Shown here one piece after another: positions 28,140 to 54,179 of a stretch of 57,900 nt of DNA; the stretch's first letter is position 1; each line of letters opens with the position of its first letter. The DNA comes from Candidatus Obscuribacterales bacterium. Lineage in GTDB: Bacteria > Cyanobacteriota > Vampirovibrionia > Obscuribacterales > Obscuribacteraceae. A program made the position numbers and the translations under genes. The stretch is from contig JAGVKB010000091.1 of NCBI GenBank assembly GCA_020050835.1, positions 1 to 57,900 on the forward strand. Direction: 5' to 3'. The notes below the pieces were generated by a model. It ran no database searches. It was not told the DNA's origin and saw nothing but the letters and a program-made list of their open reading frames with translations.

Positions 28140-28982
28140 CTATTTCAGTAAGGACAAGGACTTCTGTCTGGACGTTGATCGTTGAATGGCTGGCGCAGTC
28201 TCGATTAGAGTCGCCCCGACCAGGCTTGGCTCGTAAATGGAGTATCTCGACTCCTCGTGCATCCAATCAACTAGCCCGAACAGTTTCATGAATCGGATCA
28301 CAAGCCAAGATAAATCAATTTCGAACGGTCGGAAGCCGCTGCGTGCTGAGCCTGGAAATGCATGATGATTGTTGTGCCAACCCTCACCTGCCGTCAATAA
28401 AGCAACCCACCATACATTAGCGCTGTCGTCGTTAGTTGGGTAATTTTTGTATCCCAGTTTTGGAAGATGGCACACAACATTCAAGAGCAGCGGGACTTGC
28501 TGCACTATTAATGCTGCTGCCAGACTACCCAGTGCGATGGGCCAACCAAAGCAAAGCAGCAGTATGCCTCTGAATGAAAACCCAATCGCTGAATTGAGCA
28601 GGTGTGCGTTTTTCCACCTTCCATCTTGCTCGAGGAAGCGGTAGATCGGATCTTTGACTAAATCTTTGGCTTGCAACATGGGATCGAGGTGAGCTGGATA
28701 ACGCTTTTTGAAGAACCAGCCAAAGTAGGCATGTTTCCAACCGTGACGCGGTGAATGTGGATCTAGTTCCTGATCTGTATTGCGATGATGAGCACGATGC
28801 ATGGTTGCCCACCAGATTGGCGAACCTTCAAAAGCCAGATAACCTCCGAAAACCCAAAAATATTCCAGTAGTTTTGGACAACGGAAGGAACGGTGTGCGA
28901 GCAAGCGGTGATAACCGATTGTCACGCCCATTATGTGCCACAGATAGGAAAGGATAAATGTTGCTAGAAATGCAATTAGCAT
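28140..28982 (-). CDS. Acyl-CoA/acyl-lipid delta-9 fatty acid desaturase
   Basis: The protein has 280 residues. ATG 28982 with AGGAG at 5 bases is preferred to an in-frame TTG at 29018. A di-iron membrane enzyme that places a double bond in fatty acyl chains. Three histidine boxes are visible: HRLLAHRSF (HxxxxH), HRAHH (HxxHH) and HNNHHAFPGSAR (HxxHH). Four hydrophobic segments flank them. It is slightly shorter than typical DesC (about 300). The remaining electron-transfer partner must be elsewhere. It could control membrane fluidity, fitting with the neighbouring RRM proteins, which are cold-induced in cyanobacteria (inference). Confidence 0.93.
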   Translation of the reverse strand: MLIAFLATFILSYLWHIMGVTIGYHRLLAHRSFRCPKLLEYFWVFGGYLAFEGSPIWWATMHRAHHRNTDQELDPHSPRHGWKHAYFGWFFKKRYPAHLDPMLQAKDLVKDPIYRFLEQDGRWKNAHLLNSAIGFSFRGILLLCFGWPIALGSLAAALIVQQVPLLLNVVCHLPKLGYKNYPTNDDSANVWWVALLTAGEGWHNNHHAFPGSARSGFRPFEIDLSWLVIRFMKLFGLVDWMHEESRYSIYEPSLVGATLIETAPAIQRSTSRQKSLSLLK

Positions 28983-29589
28983 AGAACTCCTGAACTCGTG
29001 CTGTCCTCGAGTTTCCAATCCACAACGGAAACAGATATGTCAGGATTTGCTGGCTCAGCACGCAGCTCCTAGCTGACTACTGTAAAAGTGTGTCCGACGA
29101 AATCCACAACTATTGAAGGGCTCTATTATTACATTAATCCGTATCTCAGTATATATGCATTGTATTGTTGAATTGCAGGTAAAGCCCCAGGGGCTGAGCT
29201 TTCGCTCGGACGGAAGTGAGGACATGTGCTTCGGAAAAGTAGCCTGAACACCTGAAGAATAGCTATTACCCGTGGCAATCTTCGATTTCTTCAGTTCGCT
29301 TAAAGTAATGTGTCATAATGGAAATACTCGACAGGCTTGGATTTTCCTCGGACATCTCCTTTTCAGTCGCACAGCCAGGAGTACCTTTGGGTGCCGCGCC
29401 AAGAAAATGGAAGCAGCGTTCCTGGTAAATCCGGAATTGAAGCAGCAATGTAGGATCCGTCATTGTCCCAAGGTACTTGGATTCGTCCTTTAGTACCGTA
29501 CGAGCACTACCGCGCGGTTTCGGCGGTTAGGGTTGCCGACTTCAAATCGGCAGACGGCTTTATGAAAGTAATGAAACGAAGATCAGCAT
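28983..29589. other. 607-base divergent region with structured leader of the RRM gene
   Basis: No protein gene is supported. Short inverted repeats occur on the plus strand: AGCCCC-A-GGGGCT (29183-29195) directly followed by GAGC-TTTC-GCTC (29196-29207) and then GGACGGAAGT, a string also found in glnA-type glutamine riboswitches; the other glnA-specific strings are not visible. Nearer the gene lie the palindrome ACCGCGCGGT (about 29509-29518) and the hairpin TGCCGA/TCGGCA (29534-29552). A promoter-like CATAAT occurs near 29317. A long regulated 5' leader is plausible. Confidence 0.35.
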
Positions 29590-38441: not shown

Positions 38442-38948
38442 ATGAAGATTGCAATACTTGCGAAAGTAATGGTCGGCATGGCCTTGCTCTGTATCTCTGC
38501 ACCGGCAGCCATTTCTGATGACAATGATCGGCGATGGGGTAATGATAATAACCGTCGGCACGGATACAGACACTCTGACAGACAATATCGCTCAGACAAT
38601 AACTGGAACCGTAATCACTACACAAATCGATCGACGCGTAATTGGCAACAGAGGCAGATAAAAATTGCCAATAGAAACAATAATGGCTGGAACTGGGACC
38701 AACATAACTGGAACGATCAAAGAGCTAGATTGAGACAAAATTGGCGAAGAAGAGACAACAACCGGCTTTCCGCGGTCCAACAGCAGCAGCTTGATGGCCA
38801 GATGAGACAACAGTGGCTCCAGTATCACAACAACAACTGGAAGGGAAATTACAGCTGGGATCAATACTCCGATCCCCAGTTCTTAGATTACGTCCATACT
38901 CGCAATCCATCCATGCTAATGTCAATTCGGAACTCGTTGGGATTCTAG
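38442..38948 (+). CDS. Small secreted Asn/Arg/Trp/Gln-rich protein 2
   Basis: The protein has 168 residues; ATG 38442 with AGGGAGAA. Signal peptide MKIAILAKVMVGMALLCISAPAA. The mature part is nearly low-complexity: Arg, Asn, Trp, Gln, His (DRRWGNDNNRR, WNRNHYTNRSTRNWQQRQ, WDQHNWNDQRARLRQNWRR). It is highly basic and aromatic and ends DPQFLDYVHTRNP, an ordinary segment. No family recognised. A periplasmic or extracellular polyanion-binding or scaffold role is a guess. A strong hairpin follows 10 bases after the stop. Confidence 0.7.
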   Translation: MKIAILAKVMVGMALLCISAPAAISDDNDRRWGNDNNRRHGYRHSDRQYRSDNNWNRNHYTNRSTRNWQQRQIKIANRNNNGWNWDQHNWNDQRARLRQNWRRRDNNRLSAVQQQQLDGQMRQQWLQYHNNNWKGNYSWDQYSDPQFLDYVHTRNPSMLMSIRNSLGF

Positions 38949-39000: not shown

Positions 39001-39299
39001 TTGGGGACCGAATCGTTTCTTCGCGAACTCACTGACCGATTTCGATCGCCTTGACCTTGAATCAGTCTGAGATTCTGCCCGCGGTCGAACAACAGTGCAG
39101 CCGCTTGGGCGTCAAGAGTGAGTCGTTATCCGACATCAGAGGTCCAGCTCAGAATCGGTTAGCACTGCGTCATTGCTACAGAACTGTTATGATGACAATA
39201 GATGAGGCTGCTTAGCGCGTCACCAGTCTTGAACTATTGGTTAAAGCTGTCGTTTATTGCTCCTGGTCTGGTAGTTACCAATTGCCTGTAGTGATTTCA

Positions 39300-39722
39300 A
39301 TGGTTACTTTATTGACTTTGCTAGAACATTCTGAAGCTAGAGATGTGTCAGCCAAACAACTTGCAGAGCATCATAGTACGCCTGCCAGCACTTTGAGTCA
39401 GCTAGCAAAATGTTGCGATGTGGCGGTACGCATGGCGGTCGCCGACAATCGAAACACCTCAGTTGATACCCTCATGCGCCTTACTGCCGACACGAACGCG
39501 GATCTCAGGTACGGTGTCGCAGAGAATCACAATATTCATCAATCGGTGCTGCTTGCTCTGCTTGAAGATACTAATCCTTATGTAGCCCAAAGGGCAGGGA
39601 AAACTTTAGCGCGACTCGCTGTCAATTCCGCCTCATCGCGTCCTAAGCTGATCCTGTTGGTCGATGGGCATCGATTCAAACTGCCGGAGAATCAACTTAA
39701 CTGCCCCCGAACTCTCGTTTGA
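39300..39722 (+). CDS. LRV-type repeat protein (paralogue of the 53412 repeat region)
   Basis: The protein has 140 residues; ATG 39300 (a TTG at 39237 would add an unlikely extension; ribosome site weak). Four units of about 24 residues: ...STPASTLSQLAKCCDVAVRMAVADNRNT..., DTLMRLTADTNADLRYGVAENHNI..., LLALLEDTNPYVAQRAGKTLARL. The pattern 'A-N-x-x-T-x-x-x-L-x-x-L-x-x-D-x-x-x-x-V-R-x-x-V-A' is the leucine-rich-repeat variant (LRV), which forms a helical solenoid for protein or nucleic-acid contacts. It matches the middle part of 53412-54179. Function unknown. Confidence 0.75.
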   Translation: MVTLLTLLEHSEARDVSAKQLAEHHSTPASTLSQLAKCCDVAVRMAVADNRNTSVDTLMRLTADTNADLRYGVAENHNIHQSVLLALLEDTNPYVAQRAGKTLARLAVNSASSRPKLILLVDGHRFKLPENQLNCPRTLV

Positions 39723-42436: not shown

Positions 42437-43078
42437 CTACACTCCCATCAAGGCACCGGTCAGAAAGCCGACAAGTTTGCGTCTATCCAGTCCCAGCTCT
42501 GTACATGCCGGGATGAAGTCTGCCGCGAATTCTCCCATGAGATCTGCAAAGCAAATGCCGAAGCGCGCAGAAAAGTGCTGATCGAGTCCGACACCCAAAG
42601 TGTCGAGCTGCCTGAGCACCGGTCTAGATACAATCATCAATGTTTGAAATAGGCTCTCTCCAGTGCCGATCTCTTCCGCAATAAGTGCGGGAATCTTCTT
42701 GCTGATAGTCTGGCTTGCAGCCAGTCCATCAGCACACAGGGTTCGGGTACTCGAGCTGACTAGCTCACTCTGTCCGAATGATTGATAAATTGTTTGACCT
42801 AAAAGCTCTAGGAGCAATCCCTGGACTATCAGTGTGTGAACCGCATCACTGCCAGTGGCACCGGCTACAAGATCGTTTACCGGCACAGCAAGTTCTGCTT
42901 CATCCAGTACCTCATCAGAAGGCACCTGCGAGCTGAGTAAGGCCACCAATGCCCTTTTCTCCTCGCCAGCCAGAGTCGGCACGTACAATTCATACTGCCG
43001 CAGCGCAAGCGATTCAAAGTTTCGTAGGATCGCCCAGAGCAAGAGTTCACTTCTATCTATGCCGATAATTGCGCTCAT
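42437..43078 (-). CDS. Ligand-depleted ferritin-like paralogue of the ADO-like protein
   Basis: The protein has 213 residues; ATG 43078 with GAGG five bases before. Homology to the first gene's product is visible: TLIVQGLLLELLGQTIYQSF matches LIIVQGFIVESLAIATYESF, and the C-terminus FIPACTELGLDRRKLV matches the first protein's GYTQLLEKVGFEPRKAT. However, the positions of the iron ligands differ: E22 (kept), S50 and P53 (E and H lost), E91 (kept), E136 (kept), T139 (His lost). It cannot form the normal di-iron site and is probably a non-catalytic subunit. Second gene of the operon, 21 bases after gene 1. Confidence 0.75.
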   Translation of the reverse strand: MSAIIGIDRSELLLWAILRNFESLALRQYELYVPTLAGEEKRALVALLSSQVPSDEVLDEAELAVPVNDLVAGATGSDAVHTLIVQGLLLELLGQTIYQSFGQSELVSSSTRTLCADGLAASQTISKKIPALIAEEIGTGESLFQTLMIVSRPVLRQLDTLGVGLDQHFSARFGICFADLMGEFAADFIPACTELGLDRRKLVGFLTGALMGV

Positions 43079-43099: not shown

Positions 43100-43843
43100 C
43101 TATTTGGTCTTCTCACCACGCCGATACTTGCGAACTAGTGGCATGAACATGCCCACGACATGCTTCGTCGCCTTCCTGGGTTCGAATCCAACTTTCTCCA
43201 GTAGCTGAGTATAACCATCCATCATTGCCCCAGCACAGTCAGCCCCGGATAGCCCAATTTTGTCGAGATACTCTGCTATGTTCATCATGGTGCCGCCGAT
43301 GCAATCGATACCTTGAATGTTTACCCGCTCGGCCAACAGCCTGAAATCCTCCTCAGCATCAAAATAGCGTAGCCGGAGATAACGAAGTACCCAATCAACG
43401 TGATACAACTCTTCCGTGAGCGCCTTTTTGAACACCTCGTGAGTACCAGGATACTTGCCGGCAACCGAGAGAAACGACTCATAAGTAGCTATTGCCAGGC
43501 TTTCCACGATGAACCCCTGGACAATTATCAACGCTTCGAAATTCCTTTTACGATAGTGTTCCTCGACCTGGAATATAAGATAACCAAGCTCATTGTCGGC
43601 AAATGCTTTGTCCGGAACAATTCCGTTTGCACGACTGGCCTCGCTGAACCACGCACCGTGTTGTGCTTCCATTCTGGCGAATTTTTTGAGTAGCGGAGCG
43701 AATTCTTCCTTGAGCTCGGCCATGAGTAAATAAATCTTGGACGCAATTTTTTCACCAAAAATTGCCAGTCCCATCAGCCTGTCGATCGATAGTTGCTCGC
43801 TAGGTGATCGTGGTGCAAAAGTTGAGTTCAAAGCAACGTCCAT
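43100..43843 (-). CDS. ADO-like ferritin-fold di-iron protein
   Basis: The protein has 247 residues; ATG 43843 with GGAG at 6 bases. Six candidate Fe ligands: E31, E59-x2-H62 (ARMEAQH), E114 (FIVES), E145-x2-H148 (EELYH). Spacings are 28, 3, 52, 31 and 3. In cyanobacterial aldehyde-deformylating oxygenase they are E32, E60, H63, E115, E144, H147 (28, 3, 52, 29, 3). The sequence IIVQGFIVESLAIATY resembles the ADO helix LLIQSLIIECFAIAAY, and length also fits. ADO converts fatty aldehyde to alkane (or alkene) plus formate with O2. The orthodox partner, acyl-ACP reductase, is replaced here by the FAR-like gene. Ligand pattern firm; the ADO reaction itself is inference. Confidence 0.72.
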   Translation of the reverse strand: MDVALNSTFAPRSPSEQLSIDRLMGLAIFGEKIASKIYLLMAELKEEFAPLLKKFARMEAQHGAWFSEASRANGIVPDKAFADNELGYLIFQVEEHYRKRNFEALIIVQGFIVESLAIATYESFLSVAGKYPGTHEVFKKALTEELYHVDWVLRYLRLRYFDAEEDFRLLAERVNIQGIDCIGGTMMNIAEYLDKIGLSGADCAGAMMDGYTQLLEKVGFEPRKATKHVVGMFMPLVRKYRRGEKTK

Positions 43844-47643: not shown

Positions 47644-49200
47644 TTATGCCACTTCAGCCTGTTGCTGCTTCTCCTGCAGTTCTCCCTCGACCAGACGAAG
47701 GCGTGGAACCATCACCTCTGCAGTGTAGCGAATAAAGTGATAGCCAGTAATGGCTCGGCACAGTGCAAACAGCCACTTATCGGGGTGATTCCGCATGACC
47801 CATAACATGAAGCGCCAGTATTCTCCGCGATTTCGGTCTACAAATCCCAACCAGAGTAAGGCTCCGATCAATGGGAATAAAAATTTGAGCCTGGTTTTGA
47901 GATTCAGTCGGCCGAAAGTCTGATTGCGAGTTCCTTTTAGAGAGCCAATCAGATCGTAGAGGCGAGCGAAAAAGTTGGCTGGAGAATAGAGTGTGGAAAG
48001 CACAGTCCGATAGCCGCGAATTAGAGTGAGCGGTGCCATATGAGTCACAAAGTTGGGCAGGTCAAGGTTGTCTCCCGTAAATTCCGTAAGCAGTCGCCCC
48101 TCAGTTTTGAGCCGCAGCCATAACTGAGTACTCGGCATTGCATTCAAAGTTCCGACCATAGCCATGGGAATCCTAGCTGAGCTAATGAACTGTATCTGGC
48201 GTTCGAAAATGTCCTCTTCATCGTTATCGAATCCAATGATGAAGCCAGCCATTACCTCAATACCATGCTGCTGAATAGCATGAACTTTACTAAGCATGTC
48301 ACCATGCATATTCTGATACTTGTGGGTTTCACGGAGGCTTTCCAACGAGGGGCTCTCTATGCCGACGAACACTGAATGGAAGCCGGCCTTTCCCATCAAT
48401 TCAAGGAGCTCGTGATCGTCGGCAAGATTCAAACTGGCCTCGGTGTAAAGCCAGAATGGGTACTCATGATTCTCCATCCACTTGATCAGTTCAGGAAGCA
48501 TTAGCTTGACGTCACGCTTGTTGCCTATGAAATTGTCATCCACCAAGAACACTTCACCGCGGAATCCCAAATTGTATATACTCTGCAATTCTTCTAGTAT
48601 CTGCTTGGGTTTTTTCGTGCGCGGCTTTTTGCCGTAAAGTGCCGTGATATCACAGAACTCACATGCAAAGGGGCAGCCGCGAGAGAATTGGACGCACATG
48701 TGTGTGTAAGCATCAATCTCCAGCAAGTCAAAACGTGGTACCGGTGTCTGGGTCACGTCCGGCTTTTCACCGCTAGCCGTATACACTCGCTGGGGGTTGC
48801 CAGCTACAAAGTCCTTTAGAAACAGCGGCAACGTAATCTCGGCTTCATCTTGCAGCAAGTAAGTTGCTGCTGCGAATTTTTCCGGGCTTGAGGTTGCGTC
48901 CGGTCCGCCAACTACGGTTGGAACACCAGCCTGCCCACACCGATTAATGGTTTCCATCATCGATCGGTGTTGAATTCCCATACCGCTGAGCAGCGCCAGA
49001 TCAGCCCACTCGATATCTGTTTGAGAAAGCTCACCAATATTCAAATCTACCAGTCGCAGATTCCAATCCGGCGGACACAAGGCGGCTACAGTCAGTAACC
49101 CCAATGGTGGCATGACAGCACGTTTGCCAAGCAGCCTAACTGAATACTGCGCGCCCCAGTAGGTGAGCGGAATTTGTGGCCAAATTAACAACGCATTCAT
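47644..49200 (-). CDS. B12-binding-domain radical SAM protein (DUF4070 type)
   Basis: The protein has 518 residues; ATG 49200 with AGGAG at 8 bases. N-terminal B12-binding-like domain (PPLGLLTVAALCPPDW, DLALLSGMGIQHRS, PTVVGGPDATSS). Radical SAM domain with CPFACEFCDITALYG (Cys-x3-Cys-x2-Cys for the 4Fe-4S cluster). Further features are FLVDDNFIGNKRDVK and GFIIGFDNDEEDIF. The C-terminal 130 residues match the DUF4070 extension, common in large B12-radical enzymes. In related enzymes (e.g. hopanoid C-2 methylase HpnP) the group methylates unactivated carbon. The substrate here is unknown. Standing alone downstream of 49.2 kb. Confidence 0.9.
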   Translation of the reverse strand: MNALLIWPQIPLTYWGAQYSVRLLGKRAVMPPLGLLTVAALCPPDWNLRLVDLNIGELSQTDIEWADLALLSGMGIQHRSMMETINRCGQAGVPTVVGGPDATSSPEKFAAATYLLQDEAEITLPLFLKDFVAGNPQRVYTASGEKPDVTQTPVPRFDLLEIDAYTHMCVQFSRGCPFACEFCDITALYGKKPRTKKPKQILEELQSIYNLGFRGEVFLVDDNFIGNKRDVKLMLPELIKWMENHEYPFWLYTEASLNLADDHELLELMGKAGFHSVFVGIESPSLESLRETHKYQNMHGDMLSKVHAIQQHGIEVMAGFIIGFDNDEEDIFERQIQFISSARIPMAMVGTLNAMPSTQLWLRLKTEGRLLTEFTGDNLDLPNFVTHMAPLTLIRGYRTVLSTLYSPANFFARLYDLIGSLKGTRNQTFGRLNLKTRLKFLFPLIGALLWLGFVDRNRGEYWRFMLWVMRNHPDKWLFALCRAITGYHFIRYTAEVMVPRLRLVEGELQEKQQQAEVA

Positions 49201-53411: not shown

Positions 53412-54179
53412 CTACCCCTTCTGCTCGGCTATGATGATATTGGCTCGGATTCCTATTGTGACAGCTTCATCAAGCTTACTCTGCCCGACCAGCGCTGCTG
53501 CTAGCTTGTATAAAGCAAGACCTACTTCCTTGTGCTCAGCGCCAAGCAATCCTTCTAGCCCTTGAATCAGCTTTCTGTAGAAATCTTCGGCCTCAACAAA
53601 CTGCTCTTGTATCAGCATTTCATCAGCCCGTTGCGATACACTCTTCAAGTTATCCAGAGTGTTTTGTGCCAGTGCGAGCACAAATGGATTGTCATCATGC
53701 GCCAGTGATCTCAGATCTTCCACAGCGGTATTCGCATTTTCAGCCATTCGATATCGCACTTCAGCGTTCTCATCACTGACAAGTAACTGCCTCGTGTCAT
53801 TCGACATATTTGTGTTTTCTGTAACTGCAGCGCGGACTTCAAAAGATTCGTGGTTGGATAGTCGTGCTAGAGTACTGGCATCCGTATTGGCATTTTTAGC
53901 CACTCGCTCCGCTACACCAGGATGCTGGCTGTTGGCCAACTTGTCCAGCTCTGATGCAGATGTGTTTGGATGAGACGCTTGCCTGCGCTCCGCTTGACCA
54001 GGCTTTTCATCGCCAATATTTGAGTTTGTGTTCGTTGTCGACATCTTAAATACGTCCAGCTTAGTAGAATAAACCTGTGATTTCATTGTTACGCGGTCAT
54101 CAGCGGTCAATTTACCGCATTTTGCTTTGAAGTTTCCTCGAAGTTGTTTCCAGTTACCACTAATAACATTCCACTTCAT
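53412..54179 (-). CDS. CsbD-head / LRV / TPR fusion protein
   Basis: The protein has 255 residues from ATG 54179 (GAGG 12 bases before). Residues 1-34 (WNVISGNWKQLRGNFKAKCG, LTADD) match the first half of CsbD, then the match ends. After about 10 unlike residues a new Met at 46 (nt 54044) starts an Asn/Thr-rich segment. LRV repeats follow: NTSASELDKLANSQHPGV, NTDASTLARLSNHESFEVR, MSNDTRQLLVSDENAEVR, NTAVEDLRSLAHDDNPFV. The C-terminal 80 residues are TPR-like (AEDFYRKLIQGLEGLLG, ALYKLAAALVGQSKLDEA). It is uncertain whether the CsbD head is translated or the real start is 54044. Confidence 0.7.
   Translation of the reverse strand: MKWNVISGNWKQLRGNFKAKCGKLTADDRVTMKSQVYSTKLDVFKMSTTNTNSNIGDEKPGQAERRQASHPNTSASELDKLANSQHPGVAERVAKNANTDASTLARLSNHESFEVRAAVTENTNMSNDTRQLLVSDENAEVRYRMAENANTAVEDLRSLAHDDNPFVLALAQNTLDNLKSVSQRADEMLIQEQFVEAEDFYRKLIQGLEGLLGAEHKEVGLALYKLAAALVGQSKLDEAVTIGIRANIIIAEQKG

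Follow-up and report, generated by a model that had tools for sequence, protein, structure and literature searches.

A conserved gene trio of Candidatus Obscuribacterales combines an ADO-like di-iron protein with a paralogue that has lost most of the di-iron ligands

The stretch of DNA analysed here (57,900 nucleotides; the window) carries on its minus strand three closely spaced, operon-like genes in the order P0002, P0001 and P0003 (Table 1). They encode a protein that resembles aldehyde-deformylating oxygenase (ADO), a partner protein and a reductase. The open reading frame of the partner is intact, and P0003 starts three bases past its stop.

Table 1. Genes of the trio and residues of P0001 discussed in the text (positions in the window)
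Feature	Position	Strand	Description
P0002	43100..43843	-	247 aa; ADO-like di-iron protein, presumed catalytic subunit
P0001 (partner)	42437..43078	-	213 aa; ADO-fold paralogue without di-iron site
P0003	41295..42434	-	379 aa; NAD_binding_4 / thioester-reductase-type SDR, presumed aldehyde supplier
P0001 E22 codon	43013..43015	-	corresponds by colinearity to P0002 E31, the ligand on helix 1; the same in all five orthologues
P0001 S50-P53	42920..42931	-	15 residues deleted here; helix 2 lacks its second half with ExxH
P0001 E91 codon	42806..42808	-	corresponds to P0002 E114 (central helix, VQGxxxE motif); the same in all five orthologues
P0001 S122-I125	42704..42715	-	opposite the second ExxH of P0002 (E145, H148)

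P0002 resembles ADO both in sequence and in predicted structure. It passes the cut-off of the Pfam family of long-chain aldehyde decarbonylases, PF11266 (E 1e-16; 61.9 bits, cut-off 28), and all of its sequence matches in the PDB that are better than E 0.1 are ADO. The AlphaFold model, which is of middling confidence (pLDDT 71), has eight helices arranged in the ADO fold, and its top 26 fold matches in the PDB are again all ADO (TM 0.75-0.80). The six di-iron ligands of ADO are present (E31, E59, H62, E114, E145 and H148); they are intact in all five orthologues and align with those of the ten cleanly extracted cyanobacterial ADOs that formed our comparison set. Moreover, P0002 retains E31, Y38, Q109, E114 and Y121, which are conserved in ADO. 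A search of 386 genomes of the phylum with the P0002 profile recovered the ADO genes that oxygenic cyanobacteria possess, as a rule a single one in each genome; with E values of about 1e-10 to 1e-18, these matches lie far below the orthologues. P0002 also differs from ADO in several respects: its identity to the cyanobacterial proteins is only about 22%, it fails the cut-off of the ADO equivalog TIGR04059 (61.5 bits, cut-off 222.65), the position of ADO Cys71 is occupied by A69 in the alignment, and the Pfam search returned in addition Rubrerythrin (8.7e-8) and, under the cut-off, COQ7. Given the low identity and the score of 61.5 of 222.65 bits, the reaction catalyzed by P0002 may differ from that of ADO.

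A further difference concerns the way in which the aldehyde would reach the enzyme. In cyanobacteria, acyl-ACP reductase (AAR) passes the aldehyde to monomeric ADO, and the two proteins are held together by salt bridges to E197, E201 and D202 on helix 7 of ADO (PMC9743570). In P0002 and its orthologues this acidic triad is replaced by A201, G205 and A206. Thus, the known AAR-ADO docking cannot be assumed for P0002, and any docking in this system must follow another mode. Helix 7 of P0002 (residues 199-216, SGADCAGAMMDGYTQLLE; 43195-43249 on the minus strand) is nearly invariant among the orthologues and carries small and hydrophobic residues where ADO bears the acidic patch that binds AAR; it is a candidate for a new protein interface.

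The reductase P0003 matches PF07993 (E 7.2e-19) and reaches E 8e-18 with TIGR01746, yet stays under the cut-off of the latter. Its GxxGxxG and YxxxK motifs are intact, with G13/G16/G19, S137/T138, Y164 and K168 being invariant. Its best relatives of known structure include the MxaA and AusA reductase domains; reductase domains of this type free aldehydes or alcohols from carrier-bound thioesters. P0003 did not match the AAR equivalog TIGR04058, and no protein above the cut-off of this model, i.e. no canonical AAR, was found in the five genomes that possess the trio. Beside an ADO-like protein, the supply of the aldehyde would be a natural role for P0003.

P0001 yielded chance matches only when the protein and its alignment were compared to Pfam, NCBIfam and the PDB sequences, and a BLAST alignment with P0002 covers just 19 residues (E 0.005). 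The initial annotation had pointed to a resemblance to P0002 in the central helix and the C-terminus, and this proved to be correct: the likeness is clearest in the central helix (LIVQGLLLELLGQTIYQSF in P0001, IIVQGFIVESLAIATYESF in P0002), and the C-terminal third resembles P0002 in the same register, with an offset of 23 residues. The comparison of the P0001 orthologues with a profile of the P0002 orthologues and the ten ADOs by hhalign gave an E value of 7.5e-5 over 144 columns and a score of 37.2, as compared to a maximum of 24.9 for shuffled sequences; this score was reached by none of 200 and likewise by none of 150 shuffles. For the C-terminal part alone, none of 200 shuffles was as good, and the 23-residue offset is favoured independently by two segments, one near residues 83-98 and the other near 173-205. 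A clear signal requires the P0002 orthologues in the profile: against ADO alone the match is weak, with two of 150 shuffles being as good. The N-terminal 82 residues taken by themselves align to the wrong internal repeat.

The predicted structure points in the same direction. The AlphaFold model of P0001 was built from the five P0001 orthologues, with no ADO sequence in the input, and has a pLDDT of 85.7 and a pTM of 0.84. In a Foldseek search its first PDB matches are ADO crystal structures (TM 0.61-0.73), followed by a ferritin-like protein and then by chains of the PaaAC and PaaABC complexes (TM 0.54-0.58). The probability is 1.00 for most of the ADO matches and the E values are 3e-3 and above, and the fold match is therefore by itself suggestive rather than decisive. 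A low-confidence model with an unrelated topology, or one without a ferritin fold, would have spoken against the idea of an ADO-type pair; P0001 gave neither. At the diagnostic residues P0001 sides with P0002 at 13 positions and with ADO at seven, which mildly favours an origin of P0001 by duplication within this lineage.

How much of the metal site is left in P0001? Three MAFFT modes and hhalign agree that P0001 has a gap of 15 residues where P0002 carries the segment with H62. The equivalent of H62 is thus deleted, and E59 falls either within the gap or opposite Q51 of P0001 (Q/Q/T/R/Q in the orthologues). In the models helix 2 is correspondingly short, comprising 13 residues in P0001 (39-51) and 27 in P0002 (46-72). 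Beyond the deletion P0001 runs mostly at offset 23, so that S122 and I125 face E145 and H148; these positions are S/N/S/Q/R and I/N/N/I/I, respectively, in the orthologues. The ligand assignment of the initial annotation has to be revised accordingly. It had equated S50 and P53 with E59 and H62, where the alignments place the gap, and T139 with H148, a position that I125 occupies. The ungapped register around S50 and P53 (offset 9) scored below the alternatives and was rejected. The three glutamates that had been regarded as remaining fared differently: E22 and E91 are invariant, but E136 varies (E/T/K/R/K in the orthologues) and is not equivalent to a ligand, E145 being matched by S122. Four of the six ligands are therefore gone rather than half of them, and E22 and E91 are the sole survivors. 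As the N-terminal piece taken alone reaches no significance in the correct register, E22 was equated with E31 for its colinear position and the conserved context. In addition, P0001 retains A25, Y29, Q86 and Y98. There is no invariant histidine or cysteine in the five orthologues, and with only E22 and E91 left, an ADO-type di-iron site in P0001 is very unlikely.

The three genes occur as a set. A search of the whole order Candidatus Obscuribacterales detected P0001, P0002 and full-length P0003 in an identical set of five genomes out of 53, which represent four of the 25 genera, and none of the 53 genomes contained one member of the trio without the other two. The two ADO-type genes thus occur together in all five genomes that have either of them, and they are always accompanied by the same third gene. 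Full-length P0003 scores above 700 bits in these genomes, the next best protein scoring 72. The order P0002-P0001-P0003 is constant in all five genomes. P0001 follows P0002 after 0-21 bases, the exact figure varying with the start that is chosen, and the junction of P0001 and P0003 ranges from a one-base overlap to a four-base gap. Since the genes that flank the trio mostly differ between the genomes, the trio is the conserved unit.

P0001 is under purifying selection, as the pairs of orthologues show fewer non-synonymous (0.24-0.37) than synonymous differences (0.69-0.91); synonymous sites are saturated, and the differences are therefore given per site class, without a ratio. P0001 has evolved faster than P0002 (47-61% and 79-82% identity to the protein of the window, respectively) and is about as well conserved as P0003. 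It contains no internal stops in any of the five genomes, and its invariant residues are distributed along the whole chain. Together with the tight gaps and the predicted fold, these data uphold the view that a catalytic and a degenerate ADO-type protein share one operon.

A genome-wide scan for close relatives found four P0002 loci, all from this clade and one of them labelled Chloroflexi; the titles of the public records of P0002 relatives read Candidatus Obscuribacterales or Melainabacteria, apart from the Chloroflexi entry. The latter (SBAT01000102.1) has the trio and was assigned by the genome search to the family of the window; its label is probably wrong. These relatives make it most likely that the host of the window is a non-photosynthetic bacterium of the cyanobacterial phylum. 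P0002 was not found in a search of plasmids. A profile of the P0001 orthologues yielded nothing but short chance fragments (35-51 residues) in 292 genomes of the phylum; thus, no partner-like gene was found beside the cyanobacterial ADOs.

Several other genes were noted as well. A PF00487 fatty acid desaturase lies tail-to-tail with the trio in one genome (G031; L016:10061-10900, minus strand), and the window encodes a PF00487 desaturase about 12 kb away (28140-29018, minus strand), which may or may not share lipids with the trio. An Asn/Arg-rich protein that looks secreted and has no Pfam match is encoded past the trio on its downstream side in the window (38442-38948, plus strand) and directly upstream of it in G031 (L016:6845-7405, plus strand; 47% identity). 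Leucine-rich-variant/HEAT repeat proteins occur near the trio in three genomes (39237-39722, plus strand, and 53412-54179, minus strand, in the window; L015:2896-3327; L016:5626-6480); one is fused to a response-regulator domain, and such proteins are seemingly common in these genomes. Finally, positions 47644-49200 of the minus strand encode a radical SAM protein that contains a DUF4070 domain and gave a weak match for B12 binding.

Two known systems and the canonical AAR invite comparison. P0002 shares with ADO the fold, the six ligands and an adjoining acyl reductase, and P0001 shares the predicted fold and E22, A25, Y29, Q86, E91 and Y98. However, ADO is monomeric (PMC9743570), and a degenerate partner is described in none of the papers that we found. 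P0002 is set apart from ADO by its low identity, its sub-equivalog score and the loss of the acidic triad, and P0001 by the lack of four ligands and of 15 residues of helix 2. The second system is the phenylacetyl-CoA epoxidase PaaA/PaaC (PF05138): the two proteins have one fold at 17% identity and pair into a heterodimer whose interface is largely hydrophobic, PaaA being catalytic and PaaC being thought to be structural (PMC4498308). As in our trio, an operon encodes same-fold paralogues of which one has and one lacks the di-iron ligands. In contrast, P0002 reaches only 12.4 bits with PF05138 (cut-off 28.5) and P0001 does not match it; moreover, there is no homologue of PaaB or PaaE within the trio, and its reductase is a thioester-type SDR rather than an electron donor of the PaaE type. 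P0003 is expected to resemble AAR (TIGR04058) in using NADPH to turn an acyl thioester into an aldehyde beside an ADO, but it belongs to the PF07993/thioester-reductase-like proteins, and its closest relatives of known structure include the MxaA and AusA reductase domains.

What, then, is the role of P0001? The likeness to ADO might be fortuitous and P0001 an unrelated all-helical protein, as one might suspect from a single-sequence similarity that is limited to about 19 residues and from a protein that no family library recognises. The profile score above those of all 200 shuffles, the common register of two separate segments and an ADO-free model that nevertheless retrieves ADO first in the PDB make such a coincidence highly improbable. 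Even less credible is the idea that P0001 is a functionless, decaying duplicate of the ADO-like gene. The loss of the active site and the faster evolution as compared to P0002 would fit; yet the gene has stayed open and in place in five genomes of four genera under purifying selection, with invariant residues chain-wide and a conservation similar to that of P0003. If P0001 is a functional relative of P0002, the two may act together on a different reaction, and the trio would then be a heteromeric oxygenase rather than an alkane pathway, P0002 hydroxylating or oxidatively cleaving a carrier-bound or aldehyde substrate. The score far under the ADO equivalog, the Rubrerythrin and COQ7 matches, the alanine in place of Cys71 and the relatedness of P0003 to reductase domains of natural-product assembly lines are in line with this. 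We nevertheless regard it as unlikely, as the PDB sequence matches better than E 0.1 and the 26 best fold matches of P0002 are all ADO, the five conserved ADO residues named above are retained, and an adjoining thioester reductase suits the supply of an aldehyde.

The main rival of a P0001-P0002 heteromer leaves the chemistry to P0002 and gives P0001 another place: P0001 would be a putative aldehyde- or acyl-binding adaptor that passes the substrate from P0003 to P0002, rather than a stable subunit of the latter. P0001 is the middle gene and almost overlaps P0003, P0002 has no ADO acidic triad, the canonical AAR is missing from the five genomes, and in cyanobacteria the aldehyde goes straight from AAR to ADO (PMC9743570). 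It is conceivable that the metal-free ADO-type helical bundle of P0001 substitutes for this direct docking, but for the adaptor as well as for the substitution we see only a small chance, comparable to that of the different reaction. The heteromer is favoured as the most likely reading since PaaA/PaaC offers the closest working example of a catalytic di-iron protein that has a structural partner of the same fold.

The heteromer model for the trio can be outlined as follows. P0003 would use NADPH to convert an acyl thioester to the aldehyde, which P0002 would convert with O2, most likely to an alkane or alkene that is shorter by one carbon, and formate. P0001 is a P0002 paralogue whose metal site has gone, one ExxH motif being deleted and the other one replaced, and it would form a heteromer with P0002 in the manner of PaaC with PaaA; perhaps it also docks the pair onto P0003. 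We give about even chances to the core of this model, i.e. a two-step fatty-acyl pathway in which P0001 is a non-catalytic structural subunit in a heteromer with P0002. Its most specific version, a heteromeric aldehyde-deformylating oxygenase of non-photosynthetic relatives of the cyanobacteria in which a metal-less twin joins P0002 and an assembly-line-type thioester reductase, resulting in an AAR-independent alkane pathway, is tentative and rather doubtful.

In the open-access papers searched, we found no description of a heterodimer or partner of ADO, or of ADO in Melainabacteria. The combination of an ADO-like protein, a degenerate twin and a reductase unrelated to AAR appears to be a new pairing, made up of parts of known kinds. 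ADO is an enzyme of low activity that has been regarded as one chain acting alone. The invariable trio points to a version made up of two parts. A natural pseudo-subunit that is conserved together with its own reductase would make it testable what a partner adds, be it stability, substrate or electron delivery. If our reading is true, ADO-type chemistry would reach those members of the cyanobacterial phylum that do not photosynthesise, and the trio would be a second instance, after PaaA/PaaC, of the pairing of a catalytic with a degenerate protein.
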